Source of the DNA: a virus
Length of the DNA: 64,000 nt
Virus record (IMG/VR): IMGVR_UViG_3300020428_000007
Location: 62,001 to 126,000 of that record
Direction: 5' to 3' (one strand)
Shown here: positions 12,731 through 62,123 of the stretch, in pieces
How the letters are laid out: each line of letters starts with the position of its first letter
How positions within the stretch are numbered: the first letter of the stretch is position 1
The notes under the pieces: model-generated
What the model saw: the letters and a program-made list of their open reading frames with translations, nothing else
Told to the model about the DNA's origin: nothing
Databases searched by the model: none
Made by a program: the position numbers and the translations under genes

Positions 12731-13351
12731 TTATTCTAACCAAGCATTCTCAGCACTGATAACACGTTCGGGGCCCAGCTTTTTAGTTTCTGGGTCTTCT
12801 ATTCGAACTTTAACTTTGTTACCGAATGGCTCTACACCTAACAAGACACCTTGGTATTGCTTATTTTTACCAATAAGAATTGTTTTGTTAAATGAAGTTT
12901 GAGCACCCTTGGTCTTTCTTGGATTGAACATAAGAGATTTTAACCCCTCTGCCCTTTTAAGGTGTTCAGCACACCACTTTCTAGAATCTGCTGCATCGGA
13001 ATCTTTAATGCGTTGCAGATCTAAGTTGCAGAAAAAAGCTTGGATAGCAGGCTCTTTGTCTGCAAACATGTAAGCACTTGGTTCAGCTAGTCTAGGGCTG
13101 GAACGACTTACCATGTAACGCCCAATACCCAAACGGCTTAGAGTTGTTACGCTATTAGTAAATCGACTTTTCCAAATGCATCTATACAGTTTAGAATCTT
13201 CTTCATATATCCAATTAAGGATAATGTGACCTATCTGAGTGTTATCAATAGGAATAGCTCCACCTTTTCTCTGGGAGAGCTTCTTATTAAAAGTCTTTAC
13301 GAAAGAGCTTTTCTCAGATAGAGCTATTAGCCCCTCAATATCTAAGCGCAT
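12731..13351 (-). CDS. Hypothetical protein with N-terminal signature-like peptide, 206 aa
   Basis: It starts MRLDIEGLIALSEKS, a variant of the shared peptide. The body is basic, with several Arg/Lys-rich segments (NPRKTKGAQTSFNKTILIGK) suggestive of nucleic-acid binding, and a C-terminal beta segment. No catalytic motif is recognised. A GAGG site precedes the tmk gene that follows it. Confidence 0.7.
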   Translation of the reverse strand: MRLDIEGLIALSEKSSFVKTFNKKLSQRKGGAIPIDNTQIGHIILNWIYEEDSKLYRCIWKSRFTNSVTTLSRLGIGRYMVSRSSPRLAEPSAYMFADKEPAIQAFFCNLDLQRIKDSDAADSRKWCAEHLKRAEGLKSLMFNPRKTKGAQTSFNKTILIGKNKQYQGVLLGVEPFGNKVKVRIEDPETKKLGPERVISAENAWLE

Positions 13352-42845: not shown

Positions 42846-43529
42846 TTAAATGTCTACAACTACTATCAGATGCTTAACTTCGCCGTCCATTCGAACTGTA
42901 CCAAGTTCTACATCAATGCCCGGTATCTGTTTTTCAATCTCACGTTCAAGCTCAGTAGCCCAAGAACCAAACTGACCTACTCGAAGACCGTGTTTACGTC
43001 TGTAAGAACGTAGCGTTGAAATTGCATCATAGAAATAATAAACTTCGCCCGGCAACATTTCACGCGCACGAATAAACTCAATCTTCTTCATACCATTGAT
43101 ACGAACATTTTTGAGTTTACGTGTTAGGTCCGTGTCTTCGCGTGGATGATTAAGCATTGTAACAGATACAGGAGTAGCACCAGCACCACGACTAGGATTA
43201 AGAGAGTTATCTTTATCTAGTCCAGCAGGAGCGCCCCGTAAGCTGTCTTTAATAGACTTACCATCTACTTTACCACGATGCGATTTAGACCGTTTTAGAA
43301 TGTTCATTGCTTCACGTTCAGTAAGCTTGAACTTTGTATCGAGCGAGAATTCTTCTATCAGATAGTAATTGCCTCGTGGGGCAGGCATCAATCCATAAAC
43401 ATCACCACTAGCTAGTTCTAAATCATATTTTGGATTGTGGTCTAGAAACTTAGCAGGGCGTTTACCCATGAACTTATACCAAGCGCACTTTTTAACGTCA
43501 ATTGGTTTAGCTGATAGACTAATAAGCAT
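42846..43529 (-). CDS. Protein with shared N-terminal signature and IDGRS-type domain, 227 aa
   Basis: I place the start at ATG 43527-43529. It has an AAGAAG ribosome site, follows the previous stop directly, and begins MLISLSAKP, the cleanest copy of the shared peptide. Residues 15-90 resemble the N-terminal domain of the metalloprotease at 57130-58083: CAWYKFMGK, DVYGLMPAPRGNYYLI and SHRGKVDGKSIKD match SWFRHLGSP, AVYCIAPNKGSLVIT and YMGKIDGRSVKP there. The C-terminal half is basic and beta-rich. Possibly a packaged head protein, despite lying among tail genes. Confidence 0.7.
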   Translation of the reverse strand: MLISLSAKPIDVKKCAWYKFMGKRPAKFLDHNPKYDLELASGDVYGLMPAPRGNYYLIEEFSLDTKFKLTEREAMNILKRSKSHRGKVDGKSIKDSLRGAPAGLDKDNSLNPSRGAGATPVSVTMLNHPREDTDLTRKLKNVRINGMKKIEFIRAREMLPGEVYYFYDAISTLRSYRRKHGLRVGQFGSWATELEREIEKQIPGIDVELGTVRMDGEVKHLIVVVDI

Positions 43530-47708: not shown

Positions 47709-48791
47709 TTATACTCGTTGACCTTTTGCTACAGAGCGAACGTTTGCAAGAACGAACGAGAACGTTTCAGCAATTAACCAACCTTTGTCAGTTGCGCCTT
47801 GGTTCGCACCATCAGTAGGAGTAGAACGTACACCGCGAGTAGTGTAAACGCCGTGGTTTTCAGGAGAAGATACAACGTAGATTTCGCCTTTATCAAGAAC
47901 GCGTTGGTTCTGAGCGCGGAAACCGTCAGTCATAAGTTCTAGTCCAACTAGTGTACCGATTTTACCGTTAACAACTAGGTCGAACTTGCTTACTGGATCA
48001 AGGAATGAGCTGAACTCAGGGTTACCGATAATGTCTTTCCAGAAGTCATTAGAGATAATCGCTTTGTTAGCAGACAAGTTCCAGTCAGTAACCTGTTCTT
48101 GCATTGACGCAAGCATCTTAGGTGTAAGTTCACCAGAGATATAAGTAAGATCGTTTGCACGACCTACAGTGCGGTCAGCAGCGCGTTTCCAGATACGGTC
48201 TTCGCCAGTCATGATAGCTTCCATTGCTTGATCGCGGATATCGCGAAGCAGGTCGCCAGATGATTGGTCAAGTTCCATTTGAGATACGCGAACGTTTGAC
48301 TTAACTTCGTATTCAGATGGACGGAACTGACGATCACGAATCAGTTGATAACCCATTTGAGTTGGTGAAGTTGAGATAACCGCTTGCACTTCGTGGCGTG
48401 GCATATAAACGTTAGGGAATTCACCTTGACGTAGAGTTTTACCAACCGCTAAGTTACGCATAAAGCCAGCGCGTGAAGCTTGCTCAGAAATTTCGTCAGC
48501 TACAGCAGCACCTAGTGCAGCCCAGTCTTCAAGAGACGCGTTAGCTTGTGCAACTAGCTCCGCTTCTTGACGAGAGATTTCTTCTGATGGAACATGTTCT
48601 TGCTTGATTTCGCCAGAAGCCGACATGCTCATGATCGTACTAATAGCTTCTAGTAGCTCGCCTTTATCGTGCGCGTTAATTTCGCCGTTAGAAGAAAGAG
48701 CAGATAAGCCGGAACCCGGCAGTTTCAAAGCTTCGATAGGATCGCCGTTCGCCAGTACATGACGGAAGTTACGTGCGTTAGATTTGTTCAT
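47709..48791 (-). CDS. Major capsid protein
   Basis: It lies between the decoration/scaffold genes and the neck genes. 360 aa is typical for an HK97-fold capsid protein with an N-terminal delta region. Residues 1-75 are polar and helical. After them come GEFPNVYMPRHEV, then a long spine helix region (DQSSGDLLRDIRDQAMEAIM) and late strands GTLVGLELMTDGFRAQNQ, VLDKGEIYVVSSPENHGVY and FVLANVRSVAKGQ typical of the P-domain. The LSALSSNGEI and SMSASGEI stretches in the leader resemble the shared S-x-S-A peptide and are candidate protease sites. Confidence 0.85.
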   Translation of the reverse strand: MNKSNARNFRHVLANGDPIEALKLPGSGLSALSSNGEINAHDKGELLEAISTIMSMSASGEIKQEHVPSEEISRQEAELVAQANASLEDWAALGAAVADEISEQASRAGFMRNLAVGKTLRQGEFPNVYMPRHEVQAVISTSPTQMGYQLIRDRQFRPSEYEVKSNVRVSQMELDQSSGDLLRDIRDQAMEAIMTGEDRIWKRAADRTVGRANDLTYISGELTPKMLASMQEQVTDWNLSANKAIISNDFWKDIIGNPEFSSFLDPVSKFDLVVNGKIGTLVGLELMTDGFRAQNQRVLDKGEIYVVSSPENHGVYTTRGVRSTPTDGANQGATDKGWLIAETFSFVLANVRSVAKGQRV

Positions 48792-51737: not shown

Positions 51738-51767
51738 AAAAAAGCCCCGAATTAACGAGGCTTTTTC
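51738..51767 (-). terminator. Intrinsic terminator after the frameshift gene
   Basis: AAAAAGCC and GGCTTTTT arms pair around a 12-14-base loop; on the - strand the second arm continues into TTTATTTC. It lies 17 bases after the stop codon at 51784 and ends the internal-protein operon. The A/T flanks on the other strand would also work as a terminator, but no + strand gene needs it. Confidence 0.85.
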
Positions 51768-51783
51768 CGTACTAAGAACAAAA

Positions 51784-52416
51784 TTAATCGTGAAAGAAAA
51801 TAGCAGCTTTAGAACCATTTCTATCGAATACGTTTATATGGATACGTCCCGCATTTGGTAAAACGCCTTCATACGTAGTACCCGCTACACCGTCCATACG
51901 TTTAGACTTTAGATTCGATCCTATCTTAGTTAAGAGTTTTGAAACTGCATTTTTAGTTACGTTAGTACTATAACCTTTATTGCCTTGAACATCATGTCTT
52001 TTTAAAGGAGATCCTTTAATCTTATGTTCTTTCAAAAAACTATTAGCTCTTTTGTCAGAGGACTCAGATGAAGAGCTACCTCCGCTACTGTTTTCTTCAA
52101 TATCAGAAAGTGCATCTTGTACCGTAGATTTATCTTTGAATATAAGATTCATGAACTTTTTAAGAGAATCTTTATCTCCATACGTGTTCATTCTTTCTTC
52201 GTTGAAATCTGGATCGCGACCTGCGAACTCTAACTTAACACCTGCTTGATTTGCCATATCTAACAAATCTTCGGCAGTAGTTCCGTAGTCATCTTCCATG
52301 TGTGTAAGTTTGCCGTTTTTGACCGTAGCGTCTATCAAAGTTTCGTACTTATGAGAAGCATTCTTTATGTCTGCTTTTGTCGCATAAGCTCCGCTCGATT
52401 TTTTCGGCTTACTTAC
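51784..52416 (-). CDS. Probable -1 frameshift extension of the 52413-53867 gene (210 codons)
   Basis: The frame is open from the slippery site at 52416-52422 to TAA at 51784-51786. It has no ATG until well inside (residue 14 from a TTG at 52338, which lacks a ribosome site). This suggests it is made as a C-terminal extension of the upstream protein, giving about 694 aa in total. Its first part, NGKLTHMEDDYGTTAEDLL then KDSLKKFMNLIF, resembles the end of the zero-frame protein (GGKLDTRDADTKELLNG and EDLKKFFKDVL), so the extension adds a second copy of that module. A Ser-rich linker (SSGGSSSSESS) and a basic beta domain ending NGSKAAIFFHD follow. Independent initiation at TTG is the alternative. 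Confidence 0.7.
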   Translation of the reverse strand, partial: VSKPKKSSGAYATKADIKNASHKYETLIDATVKNGKLTHMEDDYGTTAEDLLDMANQAGVKLEFAGRDPDFNEERMNTYGDKDSLKKFMNLIFKDKSTVQDALSDIEENSSGGSSSSESSDKRANSFLKEHKIKGSPLKRHDVQGNKGYSTNVTKNAVSKLLTKIGSNLKSKRMDGVAGTTYEGVLPNAGRIHINVFDRNGSKAAIFFHD

Positions 52417-52440
52417 TTTTTTGCTGTTGTAGCCTTTTTT
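52384..52440 (-). promoter_or_regulatory. Programmed -1 frameshift signal: two A AAA AAG heptamers, stop, stem
   Basis: On the - strand the zero frame ends CTA AAA AAG GCT ACA ACA GCA AAA AAG TAA. Two in-frame A AAA AAG heptamers (52440-52434 and 52422-52416) precede the stop. An AAGG about ten bases upstream of the second heptamer could pair with 16S rRNA as in dnaX. GTAAGC (52412-52407) pairs with GCTTAT (52389-52384), including one G-T pair, three bases after the heptamer. The -1 frame is open from either heptamer. These are the three elements of the dnaX-type frameshift signal. Confidence 0.75.
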
Positions 52441-53867
52441 AGAGTAGAAGTATCTAAGTCATCAGAAAGTACATCTTTAAAGAACTTTTTAAGGTCTTCT
52501 GGCTCACCATGTAACTGCACATCAGCAGCACCAGCACCAGGTCCAGATTCTTCAATAACTTCTAAACCTATATTGTGCTTCTTCATACCGTTTAGCAGTT
52601 CTTTAGTATCTGCATCACGAGTGTCTAACTTGCCACCGTCTTTAAATCCAAGAGACAAGTCCATACCTATTTTACTAGGTCCTCTTTTATTTAGCACTTG
52701 TGCTTGGGTTAGAGGCTTTTTTGCAGTAGTTTCCTTTTTAGCTGGTGCAGCTTTGGTCGCTGGTGCAGGTACGTCTTCAGGCTTCTTGTACTTAAAGCCT
52801 AAGTCTTTGATTTTATCCATTAGAGCTTTTTGCTCTTTCAAGATTTTATCTTTAGCCGCAGGAGTCTTAGCAGATGCCAAACGCGCTGTACGAGTAGCTA
52901 ACTGTTTGAACAACGGATTAGCTTTCTTCATTACTTCTGGATCTTTCAGAAGCTTTGCATTACCGCCGCGTGGTGCTTTAGCTGGGGCTTTAGCAGGTTT
53001 CTTACCACCGGCCTTATCGCCTTTCTCACGAGCAACAGCATCTTTGATTGCGTTTTCCATTTTCTCAACGTACTCAGGACGCAACTTACGATTCATCGCT
53101 TTAGCTTTCATCTTGAAGAACTTGAATTCTTCTTTTAGATCTTCACTGCCACGTTTATGTGCGTTAGCGCCTGGGCGACGGAAGTTACTTGGAGTCTTTG
53201 GTACACCCGGAGAGTTAGGACCTAACTTCTTACCAGCAGGTGCTTTAGCTGGGGTCTTACCAGTTTGCTTTGGATCTTTGTTTGCATTCTTATCGCCGCC
53301 AGTGATTACACTAAAGATACGACGAGCAGACATACGCGGACCGAGATACTGACGAGTAAGACGACCACCATTTGCAGGCTGCTTAAATACATGCCAACCT
53401 GGGGCAATCATGTTTGGTGCGCGTTTCTTACGACCCATTTGAACACCAGCACCTTGACCGCCAGTACCTTTCTTAGGTTGTGCAGAAAGCATTTCAAGAG
53501 TACCCATATCGATAACGGTATCTTCCATTGCTTCTGCTTCGATAGAAAGATCCATTTCGTCTTCATGATAATCTTCTGTACCGTAGAACGGAGTTGAAGA
53601 AATAGATTCCATATCACGCAATGCAAAAATCTTTTGCTTCATTGAAGGCATGTACTTAACTTCTTTTGCAACGCGAAGTAGTACAATAGTTTCTTTCTTG
53701 GTTTTAAGAACGTAACGCCCAGGCTGCTTGTGTACAATACGCGGAGCAGGACGAATTTGCTTTAAAGCATCTTGTAAAGTCTTTGGAACTTCAACAGCCT
53801 TTTTGGCAGGTTTTTTACCACCAGCACGAGGTGCGCTTAGAGATTCAAACGTAATATTAATAGACAT
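52413..53867 (-). CDS. Histone-H1-like basic protein with shared N-terminal signature, 484 aa
   Basis: It starts MSINITFESLSAPRAGGKKP, a clear copy of the shared peptide. Two blocks of Lys/Ala/Pro repeats (GKTPAKAPAGKK and GKKPAKAPAKAPRGG) resemble histone H1/HU-tail sequences and should bind DNA. An acidic segment (DYHEDEMDLSIEAEAMEDT) near residue 100 may shield it before cleavage; SAQPKKGTGG follows. The C-terminal module GGKLDTRDADTKELL to EDLKKFFKDVL is repeated in the -1 extension. I infer an abundant internal head protein that condenses DNA or is injected. It is translated to its stop at 52413 or shifted to -1. Confidence 0.75.
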   Translation of the reverse strand: MSINITFESLSAPRAGGKKPAKKAVEVPKTLQDALKQIRPAPRIVHKQPGRYVLKTKKETIVLLRVAKEVKYMPSMKQKIFALRDMESISSTPFYGTEDYHEDEMDLSIEAEAMEDTVIDMGTLEMLSAQPKKGTGGQGAGVQMGRKKRAPNMIAPGWHVFKQPANGGRLTRQYLGPRMSARRIFSVITGGDKNANKDPKQTGKTPAKAPAGKKLGPNSPGVPKTPSNFRRPGANAHKRGSEDLKEEFKFFKMKAKAMNRKLRPEYVEKMENAIKDAVAREKGDKAGGKKPAKAPAKAPRGGNAKLLKDPEVMKKANPLFKQLATRTARLASAKTPAAKDKILKEQKALMDKIKDLGFKYKKPEDVPAPATKAAPAKKETTAKKPLTQAQVLNKRGPSKIGMDLSLGFKDGGKLDTRDADTKELLNGMKKHNIGLEVIEESGPGAGAADVQLHGEPEDLKKFFKDVLSDDLDTSTLKKATTAKK

Positions 53868-53931: not shown

Positions 53932-54462
53932 TTAACCAAATCGCGTTCCAACAAATTTACCATTCCTATAAAGAGGTTTAGAAGCTTTTGGATCAAGCAT
54001 ACCAAGCTGAAATTCTTTGGTAGCATATTCACCACCACCAGGAGCGTGGTAATCTAAAAGGAATTTAAGAACGTTATCCTTTGAGCCGTGTACAGAAATC
54101 ACCGAATCGCCACCAGGACCATAACCTGAATCCCAATTCTCAAAGCGGAAACTTACTTTGAATTTGTTAAATATGTCTAACTGCTCTTCAAGTTCAATCA
54201 ATGCGCTATCGTAAGCTTCTTGGTCATCAGCAGAATCAGGCAAAGTTATAGGTCTAGCTACTTTAAACTGTGAGCCCGTAAGATTTTCTATTGCAGATAA
54301 CACATCGCCTATTGGCTGCACAACTAAGATAGTAGAATGGGCTTCACCTCCAGCAGTACCTGTATTACCAATTAGCTTTTGTGCTTGTGCAAGTTTACGT
54401 GCAACTCTCTTATAAGTGGAAGATCTTGCGCTAATGCTAGACAAGTTGATTGTTATATTCAT
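53932..54462 (-). CDS. Protein with shared N-terminal signature, 176 aa
   Basis: It starts MNITINLSSISARSSTYKRV, an exemplary signature. A basic helix follows the signature. The C-terminal half has KVSFRFENWDSGYGPGGDS then VISVHGSKDNVLKFLLDYH, resembling the module at the end of the 52413 protein and in its frameshift extension. Probably another packaged internal protein. No enzyme motif. Confidence 0.7.
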   Translation of the reverse strand: MNITINLSSISARSSTYKRVARKLAQAQKLIGNTGTAGGEAHSTILVVQPIGDVLSAIENLTGSQFKVARPITLPDSADDQEAYDSALIELEEQLDIFNKFKVSFRFENWDSGYGPGGDSVISVHGSKDNVLKFLLDYHAPGGGEYATKEFQLGMLDPKASKPLYRNGKFVGTRFG

Positions 54463-54470
54463 AAAGTTTC

Positions 54471-54947
54471 CTATATAGTTTCGTACAGACGTTTGAGACC
54501 GTTCATCTTGCCGGGATAGCCTTTGCGCTGTAGCAAGTTAAAGAAGTCTACCGGTTTCATTTCATGTAACGGGTTACTATCTCTAGCAGTACCACGCGGG
54601 TGGATGTAGTCTTTAACAAAATCATCAAATTCGATTTCGTATTCTACACTGTCTTCAACAAACTCTAGGAACTGTGCCCAAAGTTTATCTTCATCAGGCG
54701 TGTTCAAGTCTACAAGTTCGTATCTATCTACGTCACGCGCCGGTAGCTCTTTAGGATAAGCTAGTATGCCGTGTCTGTAGTTACGTGAATCACGAATACC
54801 AGCAAAGCGTTTATCTTTTGCAGCATTCTCTGCATCAATAAATTCTACTGGCTGTGGATTAGTAGGTTGAGCGCCGATTGAATATGGACGGAATTTCAAT
54901 CCATAGTAAAACTTCTGCGGCGCGCTTAATGAGATAAAGATTTCCAT
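54471..54947 (-). CDS. Protein with shared N-terminal signature, 158 aa
   Basis: It starts MEIFISLSAPQKFYYGLKFR. The body is soluble and mixed, with an acidic central helix (EFVEDSVEYEIEFDDFVKDY) and a basic end. One base overlaps the topoisomerase gene (TAATG), so the two are coupled. Function unknown; likely packaged if the signature is a targeting peptide. Confidence 0.7.
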   Translation of the reverse strand: MEIFISLSAPQKFYYGLKFRPYSIGAQPTNPQPVEFIDAENAAKDKRFAGIRDSRNYRHGILAYPKELPARDVDRYELVDLNTPDEDKLWAQFLEFVEDSVEYEIEFDDFVKDYIHPRGTARDSNPLHEMKPVDFFNLLQRKGYPGKMNGLKRLYETI

Positions 54948-56668
54948 TATACGTCTTTGCCTTCTTCTGCAAGCTTAACCATCTTCTCAATAGTTACAGG
55001 CATACGGGTTTCCAGTTTGCTGTAGTAGTCTTTCAAGATAAGAGGGTCAATGTAGTTAGCAATAGCTGTAGCTACTGTAAGTTTACCATTAGCAAAGTGA
55101 CCAAGGTCTTTAGCTACTTTAAGAAGTGCTTTCTTCAACCATTCGTTAACCTGCTTAGCATCAGGCTTACGCTGTCTTTCGTAAAGAGGGCACTTATCAA
55201 TAATGCTCTTTGCTAAACGTGTTCCACGTAAAGTACGGAATTTGTGAACTGTTACTTTTGGAGGCATACCTATTTCACGTAGATATTTGTTAACTACGTT
55301 TGCAGATATTGGACGACCGTTAAAAGTAATTAGTCTGTCTTTACGTACTTTAGGTTTGCGTTTTCCTTTTTCCAAAATGTTATCTTTGGCTAAAGTATCT
55401 AACATTTCAATCAAAAGGCGTTGATTGGGATTAGAAGTAACAAGTCTATGTCTTTGCTCTTGGCTCTTCTTGCCTGGATACTTCAACTCACGATTGCTAC
55501 CCTTCTTGTAGTAGTGTCCCACTTGAAGAGTAGTAATACCGTATGTAGGTTTACCATCAGTAGAGTTACTAGCACCACCTATTCGTCCGTAAGTCTGGTA
55601 TACTAACTCGCACACACCAGCAATAACACCAGTACGAGTAGTAATGCCTTCAGATTTGAAAGTGTCTAACCAACGCTTACGAATACCATTTGCTTTCTTA
55701 TCGAATACAGCAACAGCCGCAAACTTCTCTGCAACACCAGCAGCTTTGTGTTCAACAGTGTATATGTTTGACCAGCCTTGAGCCATAGGTGCTTTAGTCT
55801 GACAAACGTATCCATCGTCTTTCTTTGGATTGTAATTCGGATTCATCTGTACTTCACCGACAGGCGTACCATTTAGCATCTTGCCTTGTACAGTGTAGTA
55901 CTTCATCTTATCGTCAATGTATCCAACGAAGCCTTCTGGAATTGGGTGTCTGCGAATACCAGCAGCTTTGATTTCGTCTATAACAGTGCGTACACCAAGA
56001 TAAGGTTTACCGCTTTGTCTAACGAGATTCATTACAAAGTTTTTGGGAATTGCATTAAGCTCACGCTTTAGACGATTGTATTCTTTTAGCTTTGCAGTGT
56101 CTTTGTATTTCTTACGGGTGTCAGCATCAATGTCGATATCCAAACCACCCATAGAAGATGTAAGACGTTTAAGCTTTGTTTCTAATTCGTCTTGATCACC
56201 TAACTCAACCGAGAAGTGTCGAGCAATAGATGTATCGTTTAAATCAGACACAAGCACTGTAAGCTTGTCTAAGGCATTTTTTCTAGTAGTCTCGTCTTTA
56301 CTGTTTACCACAGTATTGAACTTACGAATGACTTCTAGTTGCGCCCTTGAAACCGCATGTTCATTTGCGATAGATTCTTTCATTGCTTGGCGAATAGAGT
56401 ATGAAAGATTAGTAGCGAGTTGCAACATATTCTCGCTGTCCCATATTAGGTACCCATCTTTCAAGTACTCCACCAACTCTTCAAATGATTCTTCATCTAT
56501 ATCAAAGGCGTGAACGAATTTGATTGCGTTGCTATACCAATCATCTAGATTAGCATAAACGTCAAGGGGCATCTTAAACCCCTTTTGTTCTGAGAATGCT
56601 ACCATTGCTAAGATTTTTACAAAGCTATTAGCAACAGCAGGATTTACTCTGGAAAGTGATATTAACAT
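54947..56668 (-). CDS. Type IB DNA topoisomerase with shared N-terminal signature
   Basis: The C-terminal 240 residues carry the TopIB catalytic set: Arg362 in GRIGGASNS, YGITTLQVGH, Lys400 in YPGKK, Arg478 in HKFRTLRGT, His524 in DLGHFAN and Tyr539 in ANYIDP. TopIB enzymes nick one strand through a 3'-phosphotyrosine and relax supercoils without ATP. The N terminus MLISLSRVNP is the shared peptide. About 210 further N-terminal residues are unrelated helices. It may be carried in the head and injected to relax the genome as it enters. It is 573 aa, larger than poxvirus TopIB (314). Confidence 0.85.
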   Translation of the reverse strand: MLISLSRVNPAVANSFVKILAMVAFSEQKGFKMPLDVYANLDDWYSNAIKFVHAFDIDEESFEELVEYLKDGYLIWDSENMLQLATNLSYSIRQAMKESIANEHAVSRAQLEVIRKFNTVVNSKDETTRKNALDKLTVLVSDLNDTSIARHFSVELGDQDELETKLKRLTSSMGGLDIDIDADTRKKYKDTAKLKEYNRLKRELNAIPKNFVMNLVRQSGKPYLGVRTVIDEIKAAGIRRHPIPEGFVGYIDDKMKYYTVQGKMLNGTPVGEVQMNPNYNPKKDDGYVCQTKAPMAQGWSNIYTVEHKAAGVAEKFAAVAVFDKKANGIRKRWLDTFKSEGITTRTGVIAGVCELVYQTYGRIGGASNSTDGKPTYGITTLQVGHYYKKGSNRELKYPGKKSQEQRHRLVTSNPNQRLLIEMLDTLAKDNILEKGKRKPKVRKDRLITFNGRPISANVVNKYLREIGMPPKVTVHKFRTLRGTRLAKSIIDKCPLYERQRKPDAKQVNEWLKKALLKVAKDLGHFANGKLTVATAIANYIDPLILKDYYSKLETRMPVTIEKMVKLAEEGKDV

Positions 56669-58095: not shown

Positions 58096-58641
58096 TTACA
58101 CTCTATCAACGTAAGCACCGTTACCTGTAGCAGAACTATAATCTCGTGCTTCGCGTTCAGCTTCTTGTTTAGTTCCAGGTTGTCTCATAAGCTTAGTGCC
58201 GTTATGGTTGTAAGCCATGTAACTAGAATCTCTATTATTAGAAATTCTTGCCACCCGCTCTCTTCTAATAGAACGAAGAGTTTCAATATCTTTTGGCGGT
58301 TGCTTTTTACCAGAAGAATTAGTCTGGTAACCTTTCAGAGGTTTGATAAGTTTCAGTGCAGCAATGATAGTAGGAAACTGTTTAGCAACTGACAGCTTTT
58401 TAACAGCGCTTTTTACGTTAATGCTGGCTTTAGCATTGGTAAACTTTTCTACGCGCTCAGGATCAGCAGATTTTAAGAATCCTAAGAGCGCATCGAGACC
58501 TGCAGTATCGACTATCTTTTCTTTGCTGTACATTTCAAGAGTGGGCAATACTTTCTTTGCGTTCTTGCCGAAAAGTATTTCAGCGTTTGCCATTTGTTTT
58601 TTAGTAGCAGATTCGCTACGAATGTTTAAGTTAATTTTCAT
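58096..58641 (-). CDS. Basic protein with shared N-terminal signature, 181 aa
   Basis: It starts MKINLNIRSESATKKQMANA. It is helical and basic through residue 110, followed by a Lys/Pro/Gly linker (NSSGKKQPPKD) and an Arg-rich segment (RSIRRERVARIS). It resembles DNA-associated internal proteins in composition. No motif. It precedes the metalloprotease by 12 bases. Confidence 0.7.
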   Translation of the reverse strand: MKINLNIRSESATKKQMANAEILFGKNAKKVLPTLEMYSKEKIVDTAGLDALLGFLKSADPERVEKFTNAKASINVKSAVKKLSVAKQFPTIIAALKLIKPLKGYQTNSSGKKQPPKDIETLRSIRRERVARISNNRDSSYMAYNHNGTKLMRQPGTKQEAEREARDYSSATGNGAYVDRV

Positions 58642-58709: not shown

Positions 58710-59150
58710 TTAGGCAAATTTCTTTAGCTTAGCATTGATTGCTTTCAAATCTCTTTTTGCATCACCGCTAGGTTTGATTTCAATAGTCTCGTCCCCACCT
58801 CGCATTATGTTGTAAGCTACGATAGAGATTAAGTATCCATCAGAGCGAGGAAGAGAATAGTTGGCATCGCGTACATCAGACTTTTCAGGATAGCTAGAAA
58901 TAGTTACAGAGTAATTGCCTACCGTTTTAGCCAAGTAGTTAGCTTCTTCAAAATCCCAACCATCCTTTAATAGAGATTGAGTAAGTTCAGGTAATTTACT
59001 CACTGGAAGAGAATTCCCGGTCGGTCTGTTAGGACTGTACGCTCTGTCGTAAGTGTAAGTACCATTATACATCGTACCTCGTGCGTCTTCTGAGTAGCCT
59101 TTAGAGGTTGCAGACATTGATTGTAAATCGATAGTAAGTTGCATAGTCAT
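58710..59150 (-). CDS. Protein with shared N-terminal signature, 146 aa
   Basis: It starts MTMQLTIDLQSMSATSKGYS; initiation at Met3 is possible and would match the signature equally well. The body is beta-rich with Tyr and Asn, and the C terminus ETIEIKPSGDAKRDLKAINA recalls the K-D-x-L-K-K-F module of neighbours. Function unknown. Confidence 0.7.
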   Translation of the reverse strand: MTMQLTIDLQSMSATSKGYSEDARGTMYNGTYTYDRAYSPNRPTGNSLPVSKLPELTQSLLKDGWDFEEANYLAKTVGNYSVTISSYPEKSDVRDANYSLPRSDGYLISIVAYNIMRGGDETIEIKPSGDAKRDLKAINAKLKKFA

Positions 59151-60066: not shown

Positions 60067-60708
60067 CTACCTCGTAAAACATATATCGTTAGAGTGAATC
60101 GAATAGATTCCTTTGCTTACTCTGTGACTTCTTACATCACCTACATCAGCATCGGAGCAGTATCTACAATACGCTTTCACAATATGCTCGTTAGGTTTTT
60201 TAATACGCTTTGCTTCGAATACGCTTTGGTAAACAAGGCGTGAGTTGTTTCTACCGTTGTCATCTGCAATGTAGTAGCCGACAACTTCTTCAAATTCTGG
60301 AAGTTGAAGAACAAGCTTTTCCAGTCTAGCAATGAAAGAGCGAATAGGCTGAATGCCGTCCATAGAGAATCTACTTAAAGCAGTGTTAACTTTCTTAATA
60401 GACTCAGTAATGTTATACAGACCTTTTTCGTCTAACTCACTAGGAAAGCGGATAAGTCCTTTGTACAAGAAGTTTAATTCCGCTGCAAGAGTTCTAAATG
60501 TTTCTTGGTCAACAATATCCATACGGCGTTTGGTATGCGTACCGTCATTGAACTTTTGTTGGGTTTGCTTATCAACAATCTTTATTAAAGATGCTGTTTT
60601 ACGAATAGCCCAAGGAAGAATAAAACTATTAGCTAGCTTTCTATATGGGTATTCTCGGTCATTAGTTACGTTTAGCTTTATATTGTCAAAGCTTGGTAAG
60701 TTACTCAT
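60067..60708 (-). CDS. Hypothetical protein with Cys/His C-terminal motif, 213 aa
   Basis: It lies between the protease and the 472-aa protein and is coupled to it by ATGA. It is helical in residues 20-140. The end carries KAYCRYCSDADVGDVRSHRV then HSNDIC, a possible CxxC-x-H-x-C zinc site. It could be a head assembly or scaffold partner; no family is recognised. Confidence 0.65.
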   Translation of the reverse strand: MSNLPSFDNIKLNVTNDREYPYRKLANSFILPWAIRKTASLIKIVDKQTQQKFNDGTHTKRRMDIVDQETFRTLAAELNFLYKGLIRFPSELDEKGLYNITESIKKVNTALSRFSMDGIQPIRSFIARLEKLVLQLPEFEEVVGYYIADDNGRNNSRLVYQSVFEAKRIKKPNEHIVKAYCRYCSDADVGDVRSHRVSKGIYSIHSNDICFTR

Positions 60709-62123
60709 AGGTAATCCTTATTCAAGTTATGCTTTATCCAGAGTTTGCATTCATCATACGTCTGACGTATTGGATTGAATAAAACAACTCGATTAGATTT
60801 TACGATTGTGTAAGGCTTGGTGTCTTGTCTACCAGTATGAAAAGAAGATTCTGAAAACCCTTCATAGAGCTTAGCTTTCCAACTACGACGACTCTTACCG
60901 TTACCGTCAATTTCAGGGTCAGACTCGATACAGCCAATAATACGATTATCGAACATAACGTCAAATCGTGTACGTTCTTTAGAGTCTAGACGTTTTTGCT
61001 TAGGACATACTCGAAAAGAAATACGAGGAGTAACGGCTGAATCAGATTCTAGTCCGTCTATTGTGTCAAGCTCTAAAGGAACTTGTTCTTCCTCAGGCTC
61101 TTCTTCCATTTCTTTCTCTAGCTCTTCCTCAGTAGGCAAAAAGCCCTCTTCAATCATTTCTTGAATGGCTTGAATTTTGGCAATCTTTACTGATAGTACC
61201 TCTAAGTCCAAGTCTTTAAACCAATCAGAAAACAAATTAATGAAAGTTTCTAAAGTGTCCTTAACTTCAGGCGGCTCATAGTCTTCGTCTTCGTCTTCTG
61301 GCTCTTCTTCCTCAGAAACCTCGTCAGCCATTTCGTCTATATCATCTTCATTCGATAGAGATACAAACCTTTTGGATGCAAGGGAATCTAGAAATAATTC
61401 AAGCTCTGTTTTGTAGTCGTTAACGCTGGTGGATTTGCGGGCAGCACTTACACTACTTAAACCGTTACCATCCATGTAGCGTTTAATTTCTTTATAGTTG
61501 GTAGGACCCAAGAAAGCACCAAGTACAGTATCGACTAAACGATTGCTGGTCTTAGACAATCCTTTTTGACCTACAATGTTTTCAGTAATAGACTTTAGAA
61601 CTTGCGTAGCTAACTTAGCGCCTTCCATTTCTTCTTTAGGTGCACCTTTAGCTTTGAACTTACCTTGCGCGAAAGTCTTGGTAAATGATAGGAAGTTTTT
61701 ATTTCCTTGGGGCGAGAACTTGTTAGCTACTACGTCTTTGATACGCGGTATGTTACGTCTAAACTTGGAATAGTTTTCTTGTATATCTTGTTTGACTGAA
61801 TACTTGTTTTGAAAAACGCGCTCGTCAATAGCTCTGTCCGTAATAGCCTGTTTAGCTCTGGCTCGTCTACTTAACTTAACGGGTTCTTTTACTTCTGGCT
61901 TTGATGGTAGCGCAGGTTTTGCTTGCTTTCTTTCTGCCTTAGGAAGCTGAATTTCTTTACGCTTAGCTTTAGAAGAATTATCCAGTGATAGAGTTCCAGC
62001 CCTAACACCTTGTGCATACTTGCTCTTTGGATGCGCTTCAATATAAGCTTTGCGAGTAGCTGGCGAAGCTTTCTTCCACCAGCCTGCTTCTTCGGCAGAT
62101 AAACTAGTTATGCCGTAATCCAT
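60705..62123 (-). CDS. Large acidic/basic head-associated protein, 472 aa
   Basis: It starts MDYGITSLSAEEAGWWKKAS; the SLSA part recalls the shared peptide. WWKKASPATRKAYIEAHPKS is a small motif found in many phage proteins of uncertain role. A long basic Lys/Arg/Pro segment (residues 50-150) is followed by an acidic tract (EVSEEEEPEDEDEDYEPPE around 285) and another Glu-rich stretch near 340. Opposite charges suggest it bridges DNA and scaffold in the prohead. Possible core protein or injected protein. Confidence 0.65.
   Translation of the reverse strand: MDYGITSLSAEEAGWWKKASPATRKAYIEAHPKSKYAQGVRAGTLSLDNSSKAKRKEIQLPKAERKQAKPALPSKPEVKEPVKLSRRARAKQAITDRAIDERVFQNKYSVKQDIQENYSKFRRNIPRIKDVVANKFSPQGNKNFLSFTKTFAQGKFKAKGAPKEEMEGAKLATQVLKSITENIVGQKGLSKTSNRLVDTVLGAFLGPTNYKEIKRYMDGNGLSSVSAARKSTSVNDYKTELELFLDSLASKRFVSLSNEDDIDEMADEVSEEEEPEDEDEDYEPPEVKDTLETFINLFSDWFKDLDLEVLSVKIAKIQAIQEMIEEGFLPTEEELEKEMEEEPEEEQVPLELDTIDGLESDSAVTPRISFRVCPKQKRLDSKERTRFDVMFDNRIIGCIESDPEIDGNGKSRRSWKAKLYEGFSESSFHTGRQDTKPYTIVKSNRVVLFNPIRQTYDECKLWIKHNLNKDYL

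Follow-up and report, generated by a model that had tools for sequence, protein, structure and literature searches.

A candidate dnaX-like programmed -1 frameshift in a gene adjoining the head genes of a jumbo phage

Does a phage gene that ends on two slippery heptamers yield one protein, or also a longer one read partly in another frame? The window analyzed here (64,000 nucleotides) is part of a 199,927-base IMG/VR virus record of a jumbo phage and carries a gene whose 3' end reads CTA AAA AAG GCT ACA ACA GCA AAA AAG TAA, while its -1 frame stays open far beyond the stop. A preliminary description of the window had proposed a programmed -1 frameshift resembling that of dnaX. The features at the junction are the following.

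52413..53867, minus strand: zero-frame gene, 484 aa (ATG at 53867, AAGGAA ribosome site, TAA stop at 52415-52413)
52434..52440, minus strand: slip site 1, CT A AAA AAG GCT, in zero phase
52416..52422, minus strand: slip site 2, GC A AAA AAG TAA, in zero phase, with the TAA directly 3'
52433..52436, minus strand: Shine-Dalgarno-like AAGG, 10 nt upstream of slip site 2
51784..52458, minus strand: -1 open region, 224 codons with the overlap, 210 beyond slip site 2
52384..52415, minus strand: putative weak stem-loop, ~-7 kcal/mol, no better than shuffles

The two in-frame A AAA AAG heptamers are present as described (52440-52434 and 52422-52416, the second immediately before the stop at 52415-52413), and both fall within the overlap of the two frames (52458-52413). 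The -1 frame is indeed open through both and for 210 further codons, from 52458 to the TAA at 51784, and a slip at either heptamer would give a long product of 694 aa (~76 kDa). High codon scores are found in the zero frame until ~52430 and in the -1 frame thereafter. The extension was also said to have no ATG or ribosome site of its own near its beginning, which is borne out: the first candidates are TTG 52338 (the first ATG, GTG or TTG in the -1 frame, 75 bases 3' of the zero-frame stop) and ATG 52299, with Shine-Dalgarno duplexes of -1.0 and -1.7 kcal/mol, respectively; those of eight genes in the window range from -4.0 to -7.3 kcal/mol. From the second heptamer to TTG 52338 there are 24 codons, and their coding score is +6.1 bits, a value attained by 0.7% of open stretches that are out of frame; the mean for true coding stretches is 7.9. 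These observations bear on the alternative of two separate genes, where the extension would have its own start or be translated by reinitiation after the TAA. Although a start at TTG 52338 would keep the module and the C-terminal domain of the extension, it lies 75 nt 3' of the stop and lacks a Shine-Dalgarno sequence, the 24 codons 5' of it carry coding signal, and the N- and C-terminal regions are fused in phage NCTB, so that we regard two genes as very improbable.

The NCTB gene at the equivalent place (BN7874_223) has 591 codons in a single frame, without the heptamers. Its N-terminal region is 42-48% identical to that of the frameshift gene and its end matches the last 92 residues of the extension at 64% identity, with differing middle parts. 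Between the extension and the NCTB C-terminus, dN is 0.27 and dS 1.15 (dN/dS ~0.23, 88 codons). Given that NCTB fuses the N- and C-terminal regions in one frame, the sequence comparison indicates that the C-terminal domain of the extension is a domain that belongs on the zero-frame protein. The regions of the two products, and the terminator behind them, are these.

53290..53790, minus strand: conserved N-terminal region (~residues 27-191), common to NCTB BN7874_223 and the L004 relative
52434..52577, minus strand: C-terminal module of the zero-frame product; residues 430-473 match phrog_5922, of unknown function
52090..52350, minus strand: related-looking module in the extension, of weak similarity
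51787..52056, minus strand: C-terminal domain of the extension, ~90 aa, 64% identical to the NCTB BN7874_223 C-terminus
51743..51775, minus strand: terminator (GC-rich hairpin and T-run), directly 3' of the extension stop

That the extension carries a second copy of the module ending the zero-frame product, as was first thought, is no more than suggestive (24% identity; P = 0.03 in shuffles); the extension module is somewhat closer to a neighbouring 176-aa protein (P = 0.0025) than to the zero-frame module (P = 0.03). No further copy of phrog_5922 was found in the genome, and none in seven related records. A profile search of solved structures gave no significant match, an Rfam search no match above the gathering score, and an AlphaFold model of the extension (pLDDT 40) was unusable.

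The 3' end of the gene differs strongly among relatives. In the L004 relative the protein is 456 aa long and its C-terminus differs, and L005 (L005:1-150, corresponding to window position 51764) is 96% identical from the terminator onward with a different C-terminal coding sequence directly before it. Near-identical terminators lie 3' of the gene in NCTB, L004 and L005. Because L004 and L005 carry other C-termini, the C-terminus of the gene has, as far as these alignments tell, evidently been exchanged between relatives at a conserved terminator. In L004 (L004:7324-7390) the frame is open for 19 codons beyond the TAA of the 456-aa homologue (SAGNNTAMQKAVLIGRYFG) and then meets a second stop. 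Among the viral contigs scanned at the protein level and by alignment, the junction was spanned only by contig L001 (IMGVR_UViG_3300020361_000183, IMG/VR sample 3300020361), which is identical over 8,555 bases covering the junction, whereas other relatives have different C-termini. No diverged relative keeping the junction was found among the viral contigs scanned, nor was the same junction found in scans of genome contigs or a plasmid search.

Such a fast-changing gene end invites the main rival to frameshifting, namely that a one-base indel became fixed in the A-run and split a formerly single gene, leaving the 484-aa form as what remains and the extension lost or reached by chance leakage only. 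The continuous frame of the NCTB counterpart would agree with this, as would the two A6 runs at the junction (the likeliest place for an indel), the fact that A7 minus one A gives exactly the observed frame relation, and the other C-termini that L004 and L005 have 5' of the same terminator. On the other hand, the extension is stop-free for 224 codons with full coding signal, the second contig L001 is identical at the junction, and no comparable frame break was found elsewhere in the 200-kb genome. Moreover, the break coincides with one of the motifs known to be most slip-prone in E. coli; this motif stands there two times in the correct phase and is avoided elsewhere in the phage. Taken together, we consider a fixed indel unlikely. 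A sequencing or assembly error in the A-run, which a homopolymer in a metagenomic assembly might suggest, is hardly credible given the 8,555 identical bases of L001 from sample 3300020361, junction included, and the lack of another unexplained frame break in 200 kb.

The scan for frame breaks covered the whole record (200 kb) and returned three places, the frameshift gene being one of them; no other unexplained break was found. The break at 173863 is an overlapping gene of ordinary type with its own ATG. At the place of the one at 12862, NCTB and the L004 relative each have two distinct genes that overlap; here the start appears to be an ATT. The large terminase gene (G000:C1:12831-16541, plus strand, outside the window) is interrupted by an intein-like segment; its apparent ATT start overlaps the TAG of the preceding gene (ATTAG); at this point the sequence is TAATG in NCTB and AATGA in the L004 relative.

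How unusual the heptamers are was evaluated on 208 non-overlapping genes (63,387 codons) from the pooled record. In-phase A_AAA_AAG occurs four times genome-wide, of which three are in the frameshift gene. Outside this gene one is observed against 17.1 expected when synonymous codons are shuffled within genes (300 trials, minimum 4). Other A6 heptamers are scarce as well (A_AAA_AAC 5 against 17.4, A_AAA_AAT 4 against 14.4), and since these too are below expectation, part of the avoidance of A_AAA_AAG is a general avoidance of A6 or homopolymers and not all of it is avoidance of slippage. When codons are shuffled on the gene's own usage, two heptamers fall within the last 10 codons with P = 0.01. 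In E. coli, A_AAA_AAG ranks with the most efficient motifs for -1 slippage and is underrepresented (PMC4066793). Its proneness to shift there is due to the weak pairing of AAG with the only tRNA-Lys (PMC5009743). The 199,927-base phage record contains no tRNA genes.

The A6 runs might also act at the level of transcription, with RNA polymerase slipping on them to give mixed mRNAs, of which those with one extra A would yield the long form by ordinary translation. Six As are short for slippage by bacterial RNA polymerase, which counts against this possibility, and the phase of the heptamers, the spacing of the AAGG and the adjacent stop fit ribosomal slippage. Two A6 runs are nonetheless present and Thermus dnaX does use transcriptional slippage (PMC5009743); overall, polymerase slippage appears quite improbable here.

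The AAGG reported about 10 bases 5' of the second heptamer is placed at a spacing of exactly 10 nt. It is formed by the end of the first heptamer and consequently overlaps slip site 1, with a duplex of -3.2 kcal/mol. The arrangement AAGG-N10-AAAAAAG is found twice in the 64-kb window against 0.07 expected, both times inside the frameshift gene. Four other, unrelated phage contigs that share a 24-base word with the junction (AAAAAGG..AC.AC.GCAAAAAAG) provide a useful negative control. In these the word lies in KKATTAKK stretches of lysine-rich linkers or tails, and the -1 frame is closed after 4 codons. Because unrelated phages carry the word without a continuing -1 frame, the AAGG and the heptamer may partly be by-products of the lysine-rich peptide KKATTAKK (KKA codons). 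The stem proposed 3' of the second heptamer can be drawn (GUAAGC 52412-52407 with GCUUAU 52389-52384), but folds of 30-60 nt reach z of only ~-0.3 to -1.9 against shuffles, the 40-nt downstream fold (~-7 kcal/mol) having z ~-1. Longer folds of 110-120 nt give z ~-2.4 to -2.5, values equalled by other stretches along the gene.

Programmed -1 frameshifting of the dnaX type, in a 'reversed' layout where one gene gives two proteins with different C-termini, is thus probably what the junction encodes. Of the preliminary description, this central proposal is the best-supported reading (through the heptamers, the coding extension and the NCTB fusion), whereas a convincing stem and an unambiguous tandem copy of the module find no support. 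Most ribosomes would read to the TAA at 52413 and make the 484-aa basic protein, presumably the major form. A fraction, held up by pairing of the AAGG with 16S rRNA together with a stop codon in the A site, would slip on A AAA AAG by -1, chiefly at site 2 and possibly at site 1. These would then continue to 51784 and produce the 694-aa form, presumably minor, which gains an extra module plus the C-terminal domain. That ribosomes actually slip here, at some frequency, and that both forms are needed is what we infer from this arrangement.

A further cassette, absent from the preliminary description, lies upstream in the same gene.

52716..52736, minus strand: upstream cassette AAGG-N10-A AAA AAG, likewise in zero phase; distance to site 2 exactly 300 nt

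Its Shine-Dalgarno-like element (-5.6 kcal/mol) is stronger than the AAGG at site 2, and a -1 slip is predicted to reach a stop after 11 codons (KKASNPSTSAK), giving a product of 393 aa. It is conceivable, though we think it rather doubtful, that two dnaX-like cassettes 100 codons apart let one mRNA specify three nested proteins of 393, 484 and 694 aa. If so, frameshifting would act on the exchangeable C-terminal module as a switch with graded output. In relatives this module is swapped for other sequences 5' of the conserved terminator.

What the protein does is suggested by its surroundings. The 484-aa product is basic (computed pI ~10), has lysine-rich linkers and a mass of ~53 kDa. Its gene, next to that of the major head protein, lies between a topoisomerase-I-like gene and a phrog_20988 gene, the latter coming just ahead of the major head protein gene; this gene order recurs in NCTB, L004 and PaBG. 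The major head protein (48791..47709) is 77% identical to its NCTB counterpart and ~50% identical to those of Lu11, HRDY3 and Erwinia/Dickeya jumbo phages. In PaBG the gene at the equivalent position encodes gp83, which was detected in purified particles (PMC7412058, Table 1); its calculated mass of 35.1 kDa matches the published value (PMC7412058). Sequence comparison showed no significant similarity between gp83 and the frameshift-gene protein. It is thus gene position (the place of the gene and the presence of its positional equivalent gp83 in purified particles) from which a virion-associated or ejected head protein can reasonably be inferred.

At least eight genes around the head cluster, including the frameshift gene, share a short N-terminal pattern (in the forms MLISLSR, MEIFISLSA, MNITINLSSISA, MSINITFESLSA, MKINLNIRSESA, MQLTIDLQSMSA, MDYGITSLSAEE and MLISLSAK), which is also seen in the NCTB and L004 neighbours.

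54947..56668, minus strand: gene with the N-terminal pattern
54471..54947, minus strand: gene with the pattern
53932..54462, minus strand: gene with the pattern
52413..53867, minus strand: the frameshift gene
58096..58641, minus strand: gene with the pattern
58710..59150, minus strand: gene with the pattern
60705..62123, minus strand: gene with the pattern
42846..43529, minus strand: gene with the pattern

This pattern may be a head-targeting leader or one that is processed by a protease.

If true, the frameshift would add a frameshift-extended, probably virion-associated protein to the PaBG/NCTB-like jumbo phages, for which a limited full-text literature search returned no such case. The recoding site would sit exactly at the point of C-terminal exchange between relatives, and the ~210 codons of the extension would otherwise be missed or annotated as an orphan.

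Several known systems resemble parts of this arrangement. In lambda G/GT, as in the phage gene, the first frame has a -1 heptamer close to its end and the second frame has no start, although the phage gene is not a chaperone gene and is not located beside the tape-measure gene. Elements of the IS3 family such as IS911 use the same A_AAA_AAG heptamer and likewise obtain a longer product by frameshifting, whereas the phage gene has no transposase, and strong structured stimulators are a feature of IS911. Known minor structural or virion proteins with C-terminal extensions are similar in product type to the proposed 694-aa form; they involve other genes, slip sites and stimulators and are not homologous to the phage gene, which, unlike the known case, is not the major capsid protein gene. 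The closest parallels are found in dnaX. The phage gene is unrelated to it, adjoins head genes, has tandem heptamers and carries a weak AAGG instead of AGGGAG without a convincing stem. Yet E. coli dnaX also combines A AAA AAG with a Shine-Dalgarno-like element ~10 nt upstream, and in a few bacteria, for example Chlorobium phaeobacteroides, dnaX is 'reversed' (PMC5009743): as in the phage gene, the zero-frame stop directly follows the shift site and it is the frameshift that leads to the longer protein.
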